Assembly (NCBI GenBank): GCA_947166015.1
Contig: CAMVCQ010000006.1
Span: 1-56,930 of the forward strand
Direction of reading: 5' to 3'
DNA: 56,930 nucleotides
From: an uncultured Lachnospiraceae bacterium
Lineage (GTDB): Bacteria; Bacillota; Clostridia; Lachnospirales; Lachnospiraceae
The stretch's first letter is position 1. Every line of letters starts with the position of its first letter. This document shows positions 11,472-18,294 of this stretch, piece by piece. Below the pieces are notes generated by a model. That model had not been told where the DNA came from and did no database searches. It saw nothing but the letters and a program-made list of their open reading frames with translations. The position numbers and the translations under genes were made by a program.

Positions 11472-11852
11472 CTATTCACCTCGTTTGTAAAGGATTTTTT
11501 TATTTCGAAGATACTTGTTCCATGTTCGCTCACTTATTTTCAAAAAGGTTATCACTGAATTTTTCCATTCACTATCATTATTTGATGTTGAAAGCCTTAT
11601 AACAAGCTGAAATCTTTCATTTCCTTCGGTTATTTCCTTTAACAAAATAGCTGAATCCGGATAATTATCCTCTATGATATAATCCGGATCCTCAATGATA
11701 GAAGTTATATGTTGAGAATAGTTTTCATAATCGTTTGGATGTCTTAATTTAATGTGTTCTATGCGTTCTTCCGTTATTATTACTTCTTTAGTAATAATAT
11801 CTTTGGACACACATTTATATATATCCAAATCAATATGACCTACTACTAACAC
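11472..11852 (-). CDS. PBECR-like nuclease-domain protein
   Basis: 126 aa, GTG start with GGAGGAA 5 bases upstream. The body has the pattern of the PBECR nuclease superfamily (phage/Barnase-EndoU-colicin-RelE-like): IITEERIEHIKLRHPNDYE, IIEDPDYIIED, LLKEITEGNERFQLVIRL, and a C-terminal NKYLRNKKILYKR. Such domains are mostly found in phage and conjugative-element proteins and are thought to cut RNA. Its AT content is clearly higher than in the flanking ZIP gene. No antitoxin or partner gene is adjacent. Family assignment is from memory of the motif pattern; a role as toxin, defence factor or leftover phage cargo is open. Confidence 0.6.
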   Translation of the reverse strand: MLVVGHIDLDIYKCVSKDIITKEVIITEERIEHIKLRHPNDYENYSQHITSIIEDPDYIIEDNYPDSAILLKEITEGNERFQLVIRLSTSNNDSEWKNSVITFLKISERTWNKYLRNKKILYKRGE

Positions 11853-12579: not shown

Positions 12580-13845
12580 TCAGTATTTCTGTAATGTATA
12601 TGAAGTCTCAGTTCCCTCGTAATAGTCTATCATCGTGATGTATAAACGATTTCCGTCTTTATGTGCCTTAATACCAGTCCATCCATCTTCATCATACTCT
12701 GCATACGAATAACCTTTAGTGAAAGTACAGAAATACTGGTCTCCTACACCGCCCTCGCTATCCATAGAAGCAATAGTGACTCCCTTGCTGTTTGCATCAA
12801 TAACATCAAATTCTGCTTCACTATCTGTTGCAAAATAGGATCCAAGCCAACTCTGAGGTGTTACACCATTCTCTTTATCCGCGATAAGTTGGATGTTTGC
12901 TTTTTCATACTTGTTAAGCTCCTTCTCAGAAAACTTCGATATCTTTATCTCAGGCGTATACCATGCCTTTTTTTTAAAAAACTTATTCAGTGATTTATCC
13001 TTGAAAATACAACCATGTCTAGCAAAAATCTCATTTCGAGCTAGTCTTAGTTCGCTCTTTGATAATCCTTTCAGATCCTTTTCTTTTAAATACTTTGAAT
13101 CGCTATCGTCAATAATATATGTATAATCCGGTTCTGGTGTGGGTTCAGGAGTAGCTGTTGGTTCGGGAGTAGAAGTTGGCTCCTCAACCATATCATCCTT
13201 TTTATCATTCTCTTCCTTGAGTTTTTCAAGTTCCTCATTAACACTTTGATCAGCTGTAATGGTTTCAGAACTACTTGGTGAAAAATCAATAAAAAGACCT
13301 ACAAGAAGAAGCCCCACTCCGATCAGGAATGCAATCAACCCTATCGGTATGATTCCTTTATATGTTGCGGTTTTTCCTGTCGCAAGTTTAGGCACGGCAT
13401 GGTTAGGATCATATGCTTTTGCAATTACTTCCATAACACATATGCCATCATGAACCCAGTCAATCTGTTTTGAGAACTTTATACTTCGTATCCAGTTTAT
13501 GAACCGAAAAAAATGAAAAAACTTGAAATAATCCTGATTCAGTTCACTAATATATGAACGATCACTATACACCTTGTTTCCAAGCCATGTGATCTTGTGA
13601 TCACCCAAACGTCCTTTTACGAATACTTCATCATTATTTATATATGCTGGACAGTATTTCCCCTGCTCTGTATTATTATAAGTATTGACGAAATCCTGCT
13701 TGTTGTCTGTTATTGCAAGCTCATACCCAGCCTCGCTCCAGTATACAAGGTCTCTCAGTTTTTTTCTTAATAGTATTGCAGTAATATCACACAATAAGCA
13801 TGCTATAAGGATTACAATTAGGCCAACTATTACTAAAGTTTCCAT
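12580..13845 (-). CDS. Membrane-anchored YARHG-domain protein
   Basis: 421 aa with AGGAGGG before the ATG. An N-terminal TM helix (residues 4-26) is followed by a ~140-residue domain, a second TM helix at ~168-190, and a Glu/Pro/Thr-rich spacer (TSTPEPTATPEPTPEPD) typical of wall-spanning regions. A YARHG domain lies at ~250-325, marked by LRLARNEIFARHGCIF and WYTPEIK. YARHG domains are extracellular and common in Firmicute surface proteins of unknown role. Last gene of the minus-strand surface operon (gap of 36 bases from the zinc-ribbon gene), so it would fall under the invertible promoter at 17103-17131. Confidence 0.8.
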   Translation of the reverse strand: METLVIVGLIVILIACLLCDITAILLRKKLRDLVYWSEAGYELAITDNKQDFVNTYNNTEQGKYCPAYINNDEVFVKGRLGDHKITWLGNKVYSDRSYISELNQDYFKFFHFFRFINWIRSIKFSKQIDWVHDGICVMEVIAKAYDPNHAVPKLATGKTATYKGIIPIGLIAFLIGVGLLLVGLFIDFSPSSSETITADQSVNEELEKLKEENDKKDDMVEEPTSTPEPTATPEPTPEPDYTYIIDDSDSKYLKEKDLKGLSKSELRLARNEIFARHGCIFKDKSLNKFFKKKAWYTPEIKISKFSEKELNKYEKANIQLIADKENGVTPQSWLGSYFATDSEAEFDVIDANSKGVTIASMDSEGGVGDQYFCTFTKGYSYAEYDEDGWTGIKAHKDGNRLYITMIDYYEGTETSYTLQKY

Positions 13846-13881: not shown

Positions 13882-14781
13882 TTATTCTTTTTCCTCATCC
13901 GTTTTCGTAATTGTCATACCATAATCTTTTGCTAGACTCTTTATATCTCTATCATATTTATCATACAGATTATCGACTTCGTTTCTCAATACTTTATTAT
14001 TATTGCTAAACTTAGCATCAAAGAAGTCTATCCCTAAGATTTTATCCGGGTCTTCATTATTTACCCATTTATTATACTCTGAATCATACGACTCCATAAT
14101 TTTACAATAATCAGTAGCAATATCAATAAGGATTTGATTTACTGATTTAATCTTATCATCTTTTAGGAGTTTCTGGATCCTTTCTGCTTCAGACTCTAAG
14201 TCCTCAGCTAATTGTTTTGTTTCAACAAGATGATTATAATACGTTTGATCTTCGGCATTTACTTCAAGACTTTGAAATAAATTGTATTTATCAATAAACG
14301 CAGACTCCTTTTCAAAGAAGGGTTTCCTGTATTCATTGAAATAGTTAACTAATTCATCTGTCTTATCATCTGAAGTTGCCGAAACGGTCGTTGTTGTGAC
14401 TGTTTCAGTCTGTGTCTGATTGCTCTCGTCGCTACTATTCTTCCCTTTAAACCAAGGAATCACCACCCAAATGATGACCGCTACTATGCCGGCTAAAACA
14501 AGAATAGTTGTAACTAGTGTTTTGAATCCTTCCCAAGCTCCAGCTACTGCTTTTTCTCGAGTTTCGTAGCGATCATAATTAACATCTTTACGATCTTCAT
14601 CCGTAATCTCACTATTAATTGCCCTAAATGGATTTCCTGTATCCGTTCTGTTTTCGATATTCTCTTTTGAAACTACATTATACTGTGCTTTTTCATCGTG
14701 CAATAGTATATTTTTTGTTCCACAAAACGGACAATACTCTACTGAATCGCTTATCTCTTTTCCGCATTTCGAACAAAACAT
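13882..14781 (-). CDS. Zinc-ribbon membrane protein
   Basis: 299 aa. Starts with a zinc ribbon (CSKCGKEISDSVEYCPFCG, residues 3-21) on the cytoplasmic side. One TM helix follows at ~residue 88-110 (TLVTTILVLAGIVAVIIWVVI), then a Ser/Thr-rich linker and a helical, charged extracellular domain of ~160 residues. AAAGGAG precedes the ATG. It lies 32 bases after the Big2/Fn3 protein gene and 36 before the YARHG gene with no terminator, so the three are read as one operon. Zinc-ribbon/TM proteins of this build are common in Lachnospiraceae; function unknown. Confidence 0.75.
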   Translation of the reverse strand: MFCSKCGKEISDSVEYCPFCGTKNILLHDEKAQYNVVSKENIENRTDTGNPFRAINSEITDEDRKDVNYDRYETREKAVAGAWEGFKTLVTTILVLAGIVAVIIWVVIPWFKGKNSSDESNQTQTETVTTTTVSATSDDKTDELVNYFNEYRKPFFEKESAFIDKYNLFQSLEVNAEDQTYYNHLVETKQLAEDLESEAERIQKLLKDDKIKSVNQILIDIATDYCKIMESYDSEYNKWVNNEDPDKILGIDFFDAKFSNNNKVLRNEVDNLYDKYDRDIKSLAKDYGMTITKTDEEKE

Positions 14782-14813: not shown

Positions 14814-16916
14814 TTATCTATATTTGGTTGTAATTGTTTTTGACCATTTTCCAAACAATTTCTTTCCATTTTTCCCCTTTTTATATGCTCTAATTTTAAC
14901 TTTTGTATATGCGTCATACCATTTGGGATCCGATGCATACCCTGCAATTTTCATGGTTTTGCTTGTTGATTTTGTATCCCAATAGTACCATCCAGATTCT
15001 GCTTCAGACAGAATATATGTTTTTGCCTTAAGATATAACTGCACACGATATCCATCTGCACCTTTAACTTTTTTCCATGATATTTTATTCCAGATGTATT
15101 TGTTTCCCCATTTCTTTTGGGTTTTTGTTTTTTTGGCTTTAATCCCTTTTACCTGTCCTGGTTTTTCTAATGGCTTTTCAACAGTTACCGAGATTGATTT
15201 TTTTACATCGCCAGATGTAACATAAATAGTTGCGTTACCTTCAGAGATCCCTTTAATTTTCCCATCCTCTACAGTGGCAACAGATTCGTCTGAAGAACTC
15301 CATATTACAGCAAACGAAGAATCATCTGGAACGACTTCCGCTTCTACATTTGCAGTTTCACCTAGTTTAATTGTCAAAGATTTTTTGCTTAACTTAATCT
15401 TTTCTGTAGGAGTAGCAACCACAACGGTATAATCCTTAACTACACCATTATCAGCAGTGGCTGTTATTGTGGCCACACCATTTCGTATCAACTTGAACCT
15501 ATAACCAATCAGATCTCCATCTTCATAGTCGTCATAGTTACCTACCGGTGCCACAATTTGCTCGTTATTACTAACACAAGTAAGAGATGATCGTTTACTT
15601 GAAATTCTTATTCCCGAGTCAGGAGAACCCACAAAATCGTAGATATCCGGATCAATCACACAGCTTTCATTTCGGGACACTTCTACATCATATTGAACAG
15701 ATTTGTCACCGATTTGAATCTTTACTACTTGCTTTCCTTCAGCGTATGGATGATATCCCAAAACTGCATCTCTGGGGACTTCTATCGTTTTCTTTCCAGC
15801 TTTTTCATACTCTACTATAACTCTTGCGTCAGAAACATCTAATGCTTCGCCTTGTTGATAAGATGTTTTTGTGGGCATTTTGTCCCAAGTTATTCCAAGC
15901 ACTCTATCTGCTCGGTTGCCTTTCAACTGGGGAAACTGAAATGACGAGTTTGTATCTATTACCCAACTATATTCAAAGTCGAAGTCTTTAAATGTTCCTT
16001 CCATAGACATAGTAAACGGTGTAATACATGTACAGCCTCGTACTTTATCTTGTGCGTCCGCGTTGTTGTTCAGGAAATAACAATTATTACCTCCAAACTC
16101 GTCATTTCCAATAACACTTCCAAGATTTATTCCTGATTTTTTAGTTACAGATCCCACATTTATACACCTAACTAGGCATCCTTCGTAAGGACCGGAACCA
16201 GATCCTGCAATACCCCCAACCATTACATCTCCATCATCATATCCCTCATAAGAAACCGATGCATTATTGACACAATTCGTCAAAGAACTATACCCATGAG
16301 CGGTTCCAACAATGCCTCCCATATTAATTGATCCAGGAAACTTGTTTGATAGTTTTATATTTCCATCCACATAAATGTCTTGAATATGATTGTCTTTACC
16401 ACAGCTCGGAGTAAGGGCTCCCATTTCCAATGTATAACGTATGCTCCAATTCCCAATACCATCGTTTTCTGAACTATCATAACCAAGAGGCACATAGTTT
16501 ACATCAATGTTTACGTTAGTTAACGAAAGGTTATATATAGATGCCTCAGTGCCTAATTGTGAGAACAACGCAGCGCAAGGACTGTCGCCCGAATGCTTTT
16601 CCGTAATATCTCCATACATCGTTAAATGGTCAATCCGGTGTCCATTCCCATCTAATTCTCCAGCAAAATAATCAAATGGTGTCCATCCATGACCTGTGTC
16701 TGCAGTTCCACCGCGCGAATATGGGGACAAATCTATGTCAGCCATCAATCGATATTTGCCATCAGAATTAGCGCCCATCTGCATAAAATCATTTAATGTA
16801 TATATCTCTGTATACTCCGACTTTGCATTTGCTTCCTTTTCTGAGTTGAAACTGCATACTCCTAAAGAAAGCGCAAACACTAATACAATGGAACCAAGCC
16901 GTTTCATCTTTTTCAT
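14814..16916 (-). CDS. Large secreted surface protein with Big3, Big2 and Fn3-like domains
   Basis: Start at 16916 (MKKMKRLGSIVLVFALSLG, signal peptide) because GGAGGTG lies 7 bases upstream; ~700 aa. N-terminal ~350 residues resemble parallel beta-helix/GLUG-type adhesins (YRLMADIDLS, AGELDGNGHRIDHL, GGIVGTAHGYSSLTNCVN). Then come a Big3-like domain (SYQQGEALDVSDARVIVEY), a Big2 domain (LSKKSLTIKLGETANVEAEV through GNATIYVT), and a lysine-rich Fn3-like end (VKGADGYRVQLYLK). Probable adhesin or glycan-binding surface protein. First gene of an operon whose upstream region is the invertible segment; in the orientation shown the promoter points away, predicting the OFF state. Confidence 0.8.
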   Translation of the reverse strand: MKKMKRLGSIVLVFALSLGVCSFNSEKEANAKSEYTEIYTLNDFMQMGANSDGKYRLMADIDLSPYSRGGTADTGHGWTPFDYFAGELDGNGHRIDHLTMYGDITEKHSGDSPCAALFSQLGTEASIYNLSLTNVNIDVNYVPLGYDSSENDGIGNWSIRYTLEMGALTPSCGKDNHIQDIYVDGNIKLSNKFPGSINMGGIVGTAHGYSSLTNCVNNASVSYEGYDDGDVMVGGIAGSGSGPYEGCLVRCINVGSVTKKSGINLGSVIGNDEFGGNNCYFLNNNADAQDKVRGCTCITPFTMSMEGTFKDFDFEYSWVIDTNSSFQFPQLKGNRADRVLGITWDKMPTKTSYQQGEALDVSDARVIVEYEKAGKKTIEVPRDAVLGYHPYAEGKQVVKIQIGDKSVQYDVEVSRNESCVIDPDIYDFVGSPDSGIRISSKRSSLTCVSNNEQIVAPVGNYDDYEDGDLIGYRFKLIRNGVATITATADNGVVKDYTVVVATPTEKIKLSKKSLTIKLGETANVEAEVVPDDSSFAVIWSSSDESVATVEDGKIKGISEGNATIYVTSGDVKKSISVTVEKPLEKPGQVKGIKAKKTKTQKKWGNKYIWNKISWKKVKGADGYRVQLYLKAKTYILSEAESGWYYWDTKSTSKTMKIAGYASDPKWYDAYTKVKIRAYKKGKNGKKLFGKWSKTITTKYR

Positions 16917-17010
16917 TCTAGACACCTCCATTCTAAAAAAACAAGAATCCAAACGCTTATTATGCGTATAGTCTTCCAGTTTCCGTTTCTAAATTATCCA
17001 TTTCTACCCT

Positions 17011-17184
17011 TCCGAAAAAGTGTGCTTTATCGGAAAGAATCCGAGTGACAAATCTTTTAAGACTTCGAAACTCTGAAATTCGTAGAGATTTCGGGATTTT
17101 TATTGACTTTTGACTATGATGGTGGTATAGTGAAATTGTTTTCATAAGAAGCAACAGAAATCCGATAAAGCACACCTTTTCGGA
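17011..17184. promoter_or_regulatory. Invertible promoter segment flanked by 24-bp inverted repeats
   Basis: Bases 17011-17034 and 17161-17184 are inverted repeats matching at 23 of 24 positions. Each repeat is itself an imperfect palindrome (outer arms TCCGA and TCGGA) around an asymmetric central GT, like the half-site plus two-base-core layout of serine invertase sites. The 126-bp interior holds the promoter at 17103-17131. The right repeat begins 5 bases past the recombinase stop codon. Inversion would aim the promoter at the surface operon starting at 16916. Confidence 0.75.
17103..17131 (+). promoter_or_regulatory. Promoter inside the invertible segment (currently rightward)
   Basis: TTGACT at 17103-17108, 17 bases, TATAGT at 17126-17131. 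In this orientation it reads into the 3' end of the recombinase gene in antisense. No comparable promoter was seen on the other strand of the segment. Confidence 0.65.
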
Positions 17185-17189
17185 TTTCT

Positions 17190-17807
17190 TTAGTCTTCCG
17201 GCAAGGTGGCTTTTCCGTATTTCTTAGCCTTGTCAAAAAATGTGCTTTTTGCCATACCACACTCCTCAGCGGCCTGTTCTATCGTTAATTCCTTACGTTT
17301 CCAACGCTGATATATTTCATGAAAGTTATCTGGTAAAGGCTCCGGTGCTCGTCCGAAGCGAACCCCACGAGCCTTTGCTGCAGCAATTCCCTCCGCCTGT
17401 CGTTGACGAATAGTCGTTCTCTCGTTCTCCGCAACGAAGGAAAGTACTTGGAGAAAGATATCCGATACAAGCGTACCGATTAGGTTCTTGTCACGCCGGG
17501 TATCCAGTATCGGCATATCAATCACAACGATATCTACTTTTTTGACTTTTGTGATGACACGCCACTGTTCGAGGATCTCGTCGTAGTTCCGACCAAGACG
17601 ATCTATACTTTTGATATAGATAACATCCCCCTCTTTTATCCGCTTCATCAATCGTTTGTACTGTGGCCGATTAAAGTCCTTTCCCGATTGCTTGTCGACA
17701 TAGACATTCTCTTCTGGTACATCCATCTCTTCCAGTGCAATCATCTGTCGATCTTCATTCTGACATTGAGTGGATACTCTCACATATCCGTAAACTGTTG
17801 AGCTCAT
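17190..17807 (-). CDS. Serine site-specific recombinase (resolvase/invertase family)
   Basis: Start at 17807 has AGGAGGGAC upstream; ~205 aa, the size of small invertases and resolvases. The catalytic Ser is in YGYVRVST at residues ~5-12. The arginine-bearing block DRLGRNYDEI follows near residue 70, and AENERTTIRQRQAEGIAAAKARG forms the E-helix region around residues 118-140. A C-terminal helix-turn-helix (IEQAAEECGMAKSTFFDKAKKYG) would bind the inverted repeats. The gene sits beside the promoter-bearing segment at 17011-17184, so its likely job is DNA inversion. A Tn3-type resolvase role is less likely because no transposase is near. Confidence 0.9.
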   Translation of the reverse strand: MSSTVYGYVRVSTQCQNEDRQMIALEEMDVPEENVYVDKQSGKDFNRPQYKRLMKRIKEGDVIYIKSIDRLGRNYDEILEQWRVITKVKKVDIVVIDMPILDTRRDKNLIGTLVSDIFLQVLSFVAENERTTIRQRQAEGIAAAKARGVRFGRAPEPLPDNFHEIYQRWKRKELTIEQAAEECGMAKSTFFDKAKKYGKATLPED

Positions 17808-17880
17808 AGGCGTCCCTCCTATAATAGTATTTCTCATTATTATAGAAAAAACGTCCACATCAAAACTACAGACTCAGAGC

Positions 17881-17902: not shown

Positions 17903-18180
17903 CATCTCATGTCTTCGTCAATTCACCTATCAAATTCACTTCGTGAATTTGCCCATGTGTTTCTATATTTTAATCCATCACCTGTGATGGGAGATCGAAA
18001 ACGAACCTGCAAGCAGGTTCGCTGAAAAAACGCCTAATGGCGTTTTTACCCCGGTGGGTTCGGATTATGACCATTGCGGGTGATGGGAAGTCGAACAAGG
18101 TGAATTGTCTTCGTCAATTCACCTATCAAATTCACTTCGTGAATTTGCCCATGTGGGGGCGATTCGTGACCATCACCTGT
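17903..18180. repeat. Direct repeats, hairpins and partial tRNA-Gly copies
   Basis: Two perfect 50-bp direct repeats lie at 17910-17959 and 18106-18155, each containing the palindrome CAAATTCAC-TTC-GTGAATTTG. Other hairpins: 18003-18022, 18025-18048 (A/T-flanked, terminator-like) and 18099-18123. Bases 18076-18096 reproduce the 3' end of the adjacent tRNA-Gly gene (acceptor and T arm) with one inserted base; 17985-17999 matches part of it again. Such tRNA 3' copies usually mark past integration or duplication at a tRNA attachment site. This fills the gap between recombinase and tRNA. Confidence 0.6.
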
Positions 18181-18223: not shown

Positions 18224-18294
18224 AGCGGGTGATGGGAATCGAACCCACGTGTTCAGCTTGGAAGGCTGACATTCTACCATTGAACTACACCCGC
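18224..18294 (-). tRNA. tRNA-Gly (anticodon TCC)
   Basis: On the minus strand, GCGGGTG pairs with CACCCGC as a 7-bp acceptor. The D arm is GTTC/GAAT with loop AATGGTA. The anticodon arm is TCAGC/GCTGA with loop CTTCCAA, reading TCC. The T arm is GTGGG-TTCGATT-CCCAT. Length is 71 with discriminator U. CCA is not encoded. Confidence 0.97.

Follow-up and report, generated by a model that had tools for sequence, protein, structure and literature searches.

Invertible-type segment, recombinase gene and surface operon

In the window (the whole 56,930-nt stretch of DNA analysed here), a small serine recombinase gene and a three-gene operon, both on the minus strand, flank a 174-bp segment (17011-17184) that is predicted to be invertible. 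The segment is bounded by terminal inverted repeats of 24 nt (17011-17034 on the plus strand and 17161-17184 on the minus strand), which are complementary at 23 of 24 positions and leave 126 nt between the arms. Both arms are pseudo-palindromes (11-2-11) with the non-palindromic core GT, and the two GT cores match in the inverted orientation; we predict the arms to be the cargo-side and the recombinase-side recombination site, respectively. This is the single repeat pair of such quality in the window. When the window was shuffled 60 times (first order, dinucleotide), no 24-mer pair separated by 60-400 bp and mismatched at no more than one position appeared; a chance origin is not expected. An earlier note on this DNA had described the segment with its 23/24 repeats, their imperfect palindromes with an asymmetric two-base centre and a start 5 bases past the recombinase stop, all of which was borne out, the recombinase ORF ending at 17190. 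No close DNA relative of the segment was found in 397 genomes of the family, and close relatives did not yield a counterpart of this locus. A lone unpaired palindrome similar to the recombination site was detected elsewhere in the same genome (G000:C3:18422-18445, L006).

The recombinase gene (17190-17807, minus strand) encodes a predicted invertase with a PF00239 catalytic domain (E=6e-29) and matches to the DNA invertases of PHROG 125 (1.7e-53) and to Sin/Bin3 in PDB (4.9e-25). The likely start codon is the ATG at 17807 (205 aa), not the GTG at 17858 with which the longest ORF begins. The reading frame is intact with conserved motifs, and the nucleophilic serine S29 of the RVS motif is invariant in 23 homologues. 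Pfam gave no C-terminal DNA-binding domain above cut-off; the C-terminal block is conserved and the alignment to a DNA-invertase structure reaches residue 208. By sequence, the closest solved structures are the Sin and gamma-delta resolvases, and the protein is nearer to Sin/Bin3 than to Gin (91 vs 58 bits). Its nearest relative (93%, L068) stops at a contig end. In another locus (L028), two near-identical recombinase genes are arranged as a 712-nt inverted repeat. Between the recombinase gene and a tRNA-Gly gene (tcc; 18224-18294, minus strand) close to it, the window carries two identical 50-nt direct repeats with a palindrome (17910-17959 and 18106-18155). The tRNA gene may mark an insertion spot of the cassette.

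Promoters and terminators are throughout predictions from consensus and folding. Inside the segment, a promoter TTGACT-17-TATAGT with an extended -10 (TG precedes the -10) was predicted at 17103-17131 on the plus strand, facing the recombinase gene in the assembly; it scores 15.1 bits, vs a shuffled 95th percentile of 10.9. Inversion would place it at 17092-17064 on the minus strand, facing the operon, and the minus strand of 16917-17010 holds no promoter-like sequence with a match of at least 9/12. The promoter, its direction away from the operon, the effect of inversion and the lack of another good promoter in that interval thus stand as the earlier note had them. The short segment within inverted repeats, with an internal promoter predicted to face a gene after inversion, has the makeup of an inverton, and by sequence the resolvase domain with its RVS serine and the inverted dimer sites with a matched core are those of a small serine DNA invertase.

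The operon begins with a secreted adhesin-like protein with a Big_2 domain (14814-16916), preceded by the ribosome-binding site GGAGGTGT (16922-16929, minus strand). A zinc-ribbon protein (13882-14781, PF13240) with a probable membrane segment and a YARHG-domain protein (12580-13845, PF13308) with probable membrane segments follow on the same strand, with intergenic gaps of 32 and 36 nt; the membrane segments were assigned by eye. The earlier description of this operon held for gene order and, by Pfam, for Big_2, the zinc ribbon and YARHG; it failed for Big_3, which is below the Pfam cut-off in the adhesin (E=0.016), and for Fn3, which Pfam did not detect there. A full-length homologue of the adhesin was not found in 38 other genomes of the genus. 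Downstream of the operon lies a PBECR2/PBECR3 phage-type nuclease-like ORF (11472-11852).

Related cassettes in the same genome and across the order

One further site pair (G000:C1:72373-72396 and 72524-72547) was found when the whole genome was searched by pattern. It adjoins the only other PF00239 gene; both PF00239 genes of this genome adjoin an invertible-type segment. The two recombinases are about 75% identical. The C1 segment begins about 730 nt past the stop of its recombinase gene, with a small ORF, nucleotidyltransferase-like by motif, in between, and its cargo comprises an MBL-fold gene and a large List_Bact_rpt/LRR surface gene. Homology between the window segment and the C1 segment spans their full length (67% over 178 nt, E=5e-16), but relative to their own recombinase genes the two lie in opposite orientation, a result that does not depend on promoter prediction. 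The C1 promoter, TTGACT-17-TAGAAT, points away from the recombinase, at the cargo; it and a promoter in L010 are homologous to the window promoter. Further homologous segments in opposite orientations relative to the recombinase were found in the locus pairs L019/L094, L163/L165 and L210/L216. Compared among relatives, a check that the earlier note had proposed, homologous segments occur in both orientations between cassettes, the window locus itself being assembled in one.

Homologues of the recombinase were collected from genome contigs (first set) and from genomes of the genus and the order, the second set excluding loci of the first, and one fixed site finder was applied to all. A repeat pair near the recombinase stop, mostly just past it, was detected in 35/80 loci of the first set and 29/69 of the second, together 64 of 149 homologues from Lachnospirales and other Clostridia, so that fewer than half passed this strict finder. 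Upstream control regions gave 0/89 and 4/66 pairs (4/155 in total), and about one pair is expected from shuffles of the first set. After dropping near-duplicates and three doubtful pairs, 57 non-redundant cassettes remained, C1 included. Cultured relatives also carry a cassette, for example Butyrivibrio hungatei, L023, L060. The core dinucleotide is the same in both sites of all 57 (GT in 34, AT in 15, AC in 5, AG in 2 and AA in 1), the finder having required similarity across the 14 central bases and not of the core itself; agreement at non-core positions ranges from 44 to 100%. Inner half-sites resemble each other more than outer ones (9.67 vs 8.18 of 11, p=2e-5), which fits segment ends that have been swapped repeatedly; selection could give the same pattern.

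In all cassettes with sufficient sequence (31/31), the ORF that comes first beyond the far site, counting ORFs of at least 90 aa, is directed away from the recombinase, and in most cases its start lies within 100 nt. The cargo is very diverse, with flagellin, SpaA/Cna_B pilin, a sortase and an LRR/Big_2 surface protein as well as glycosyltransferases, acyltransferases (MBOAT and Acyl_transf_3), an AMP-binding enzyme, an EcoRI-type methylase, an EAL/GGDEF protein and a helicase among its products. Related cassettes with such different cargo across the same order point to a portable on/off switch. A close recombinase homologue is present in 131 of 393 sampled genomes of the order (about one third), the share with a complete cassette being lower. 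Among the 80 genome-contig loci, 12 have a contig end inside the recombinase gene or in the 300 nt that follow its stop, and 2 have one in the 300 nt upstream. Such clustering would be expected if mixed orientations break assemblies; repeats between paralogues could also cause it.

Plasmid and phage collections yielded distant recombinases only, and the ten relatives found on viral contigs mostly lack clear site pairs. The Enterococcus faecalis plasmid pGTC3 (L145, 3616-3832) carries a recombinase, a site pair 94 nt apart and then Rrf2 and LRR genes, a single record of a possible cassette outside Clostridia. Another genome (G025:C66, L122 1500-1660) holds a degraded relative of the segment in which one site is damaged and a promoter points at the start of a gene. 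We saw no recombinase next to it, and it is possibly a switch fixed ON.

OFF bias and a terminator-like hairpin

Scoring the 57 cassettes with a -35/-10 weight matrix, we found a clearly better promoter facing the recombinase (OFF) in 35 and facing the cargo in 4, with 18 undecided. Where callable, each segment has one well-placed promoter, and in 38 of these 39 cassettes the distance from the -10 end to the core is 28-31 or 39-45 nt (in the window, 17131 to 17172), two classes that differ by about one helical turn. Common descent may account for some of this pattern.

The flanks of the two sites differ as well. The nine bases past the site hold on average 4.42 T on the recombinase side (read toward the recombinase) vs 2.98 on the cargo side (p=2e-4; p=0.03 in the second set alone). 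RNA ends predicted for 40 cassettes fold more stably for the OFF than for the ON arrangement (-11.5 vs -8.1 kcal/mol, p=0.002), and the OFF ends, at the recombinase-side site plus flank, are terminator-like in 21/40, vs 4/40 in the ON arrangement. In the window, folding predicts a terminator-like hairpin with a T-rich tail from the recombinase-side site and its flanks (17156-17192, plus strand) in the OFF arrangement only, its stem extended by AGAAA inside the segment pairing with TTTCT outside; the region 17138-17200 folds at -17.2 kcal/mol (z -5.2). A simple terminator scan of the window did not list this hairpin, probably because of its bulge and partly paired tail. Since these orientation and terminator tests were chosen post hoc on the same data and their p-values ignore relatedness, we propose the orientation-dependent OFF terminator as a hypothesis, a possible property of the cassette family suggested by folding models.

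Proposed switch, rival explanations and known systems

The locus is very probably a self-contained phase-variation cassette made up of a small serine recombinase gene, an invertible promoter and a surface operon. We infer that the recombinase acts on the sites, that the promoter is functional, that the hairpin terminates transcription and that expression is switched. The recombinase would bind the two 24-bp sites, cut at the matched GT cores and invert the 174-bp segment. In the assembled OFF state, the promoter would drive RNA synthesis in the direction of the recombinase gene. This RNA would probably end at the hairpin that the recombinase-side site forms with its T-rich flank, and neither operon RNA nor much antisense RNA would result. 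In the ON state, the RNA would begin about 140 nt ahead of the adhesin start codon and extend across the cargo-side site, which is without a T-rich tail, into the three-gene operon. The promoter inversion suggested by the earlier note gains comparative support from the opposite orientation in C1, the recurrent site pairs, the matched cores (57/57) and the co-oriented cargo (31/31).

More broadly, we propose tentatively, at a little under even confidence, that the cassette is a portable module of serine recombinase and promoter, widespread in Lachnospirales, with OFF as the prevailing state. Its site would double as an intrinsic terminator in OFF, and the ON flank would permit read-through. If true, one recognisable module would provide ON/OFF control of adhesins, flagellin, pilin, sortase, glycosyl- and acyltransferases and a DNA methylase, and it would give a simple means of spotting phase-variable genes in genomes for which there are no reads. 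The OFF terminator would also explain how a strong promoter aimed at the recombinase gene can be harmless.

Alternatively, inversion could be real and antisense RNA from the OFF promoter could also lower recombinase expression and so stabilise OFF. The expression of fimE is likewise affected by orientation, and with the promoter facing the recombinase in 35 of the 39 callable cassettes, the commonest state would yield antisense RNA unless the transcript were stopped; the recombinase-side site and its flank, however, resemble a terminator for exactly that transcript, and we consider this feedback unlikely. As a reason for the OFF bias, antisense feedback is countered by the T-rich tail past the recombinase-side site. 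The segment might also be a fossil that once inverted and is now locked OFF, with the operon silent or on another promoter. The single orientation in the assembly, the predominance of OFF in the family and the degraded relative with a damaged second site in G025 would suit such a history, but the intact recombinase frame with its conserved motifs, the 23/24 identical sites with matched cores and the intact promoter make it improbable.

That the repeats are instead operators or terminators of the recombinase gene, or res subsites, and that no inversion occurs, is hardly credible. The sites are indeed pseudo-palindromes that fold as hairpins, and Sin and gamma-delta resolvases are the solved structures closest to the recombinase by sequence, but homologous segments occur in both orientations relative to the recombinase, the cores always match, the sites are inverted and not direct, and the promoter and co-oriented cargo recur. 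The arrangement differs from that of resolvases (Sin, Tn3 type), which act on directly repeated res sites and delete the DNA between them, whereas the sites here are inverted with matching asymmetric cores.

The predicted promoter-inverting cassette has features of several known systems. As with the Hin/Gin invertases, a small serine recombinase is combined with inverted pseudo-palindromic sites (about 24-26 bp) with a two-base core, and the segment between them would flip. Unlike in Hin, the recombinase gene lies outside the segment; the segment is just about 170 bp long, and the recombinase sequence is closer to Sin/Bin3. The fimS/fimE switch of E. coli, which also has a recombinase gene adjacent to it, and the C. 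difficile RecV switches are similar in that an invertible promoter or leader turns surface structures ON or OFF. The fim recombinases and RecV are tyrosine recombinases, unlike the serine recombinase here. Mpi, the master DNA invertase of Bacteroides fragilis, is a serine recombinase that inverts surface-gene promoters. Mpi has at least thirteen target regions at scattered positions (PMC5903667), whereas here each recombinase adjoins one segment, and with 50 bits against a cut-off of 272 the window recombinase falls outside the NCBIfam Mpi model (NF009949).

Reviews and surveys cover Hin, Mpi, tyrosine-recombinase switches and invertons near surface genes. In the literature searched, with key subscription papers outside its scope, we found no description of such a serine-recombinase cassette, nor of the OFF bias (35:4) and the terminator-like hairpin in OFF, and we regard the novelty as tentative. 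The cassette, whose host is a gut/rumen bacterium, resembles the invertons of gut-community surveys (PhaseFinder type), which are short invertible promoters near surface genes. One such survey describes nearby recombinase genes that the promoter cannot drive; its strongest link in Clostridia is to a tyrosine recombinase group, and the word serine is absent from its main text (PMC11892184). Compared with these systems, the locus is very probably a phase switch of a known type that works by promoter inversion; it belongs to a widespread family of cassettes, in which an OFF terminator may be built in.
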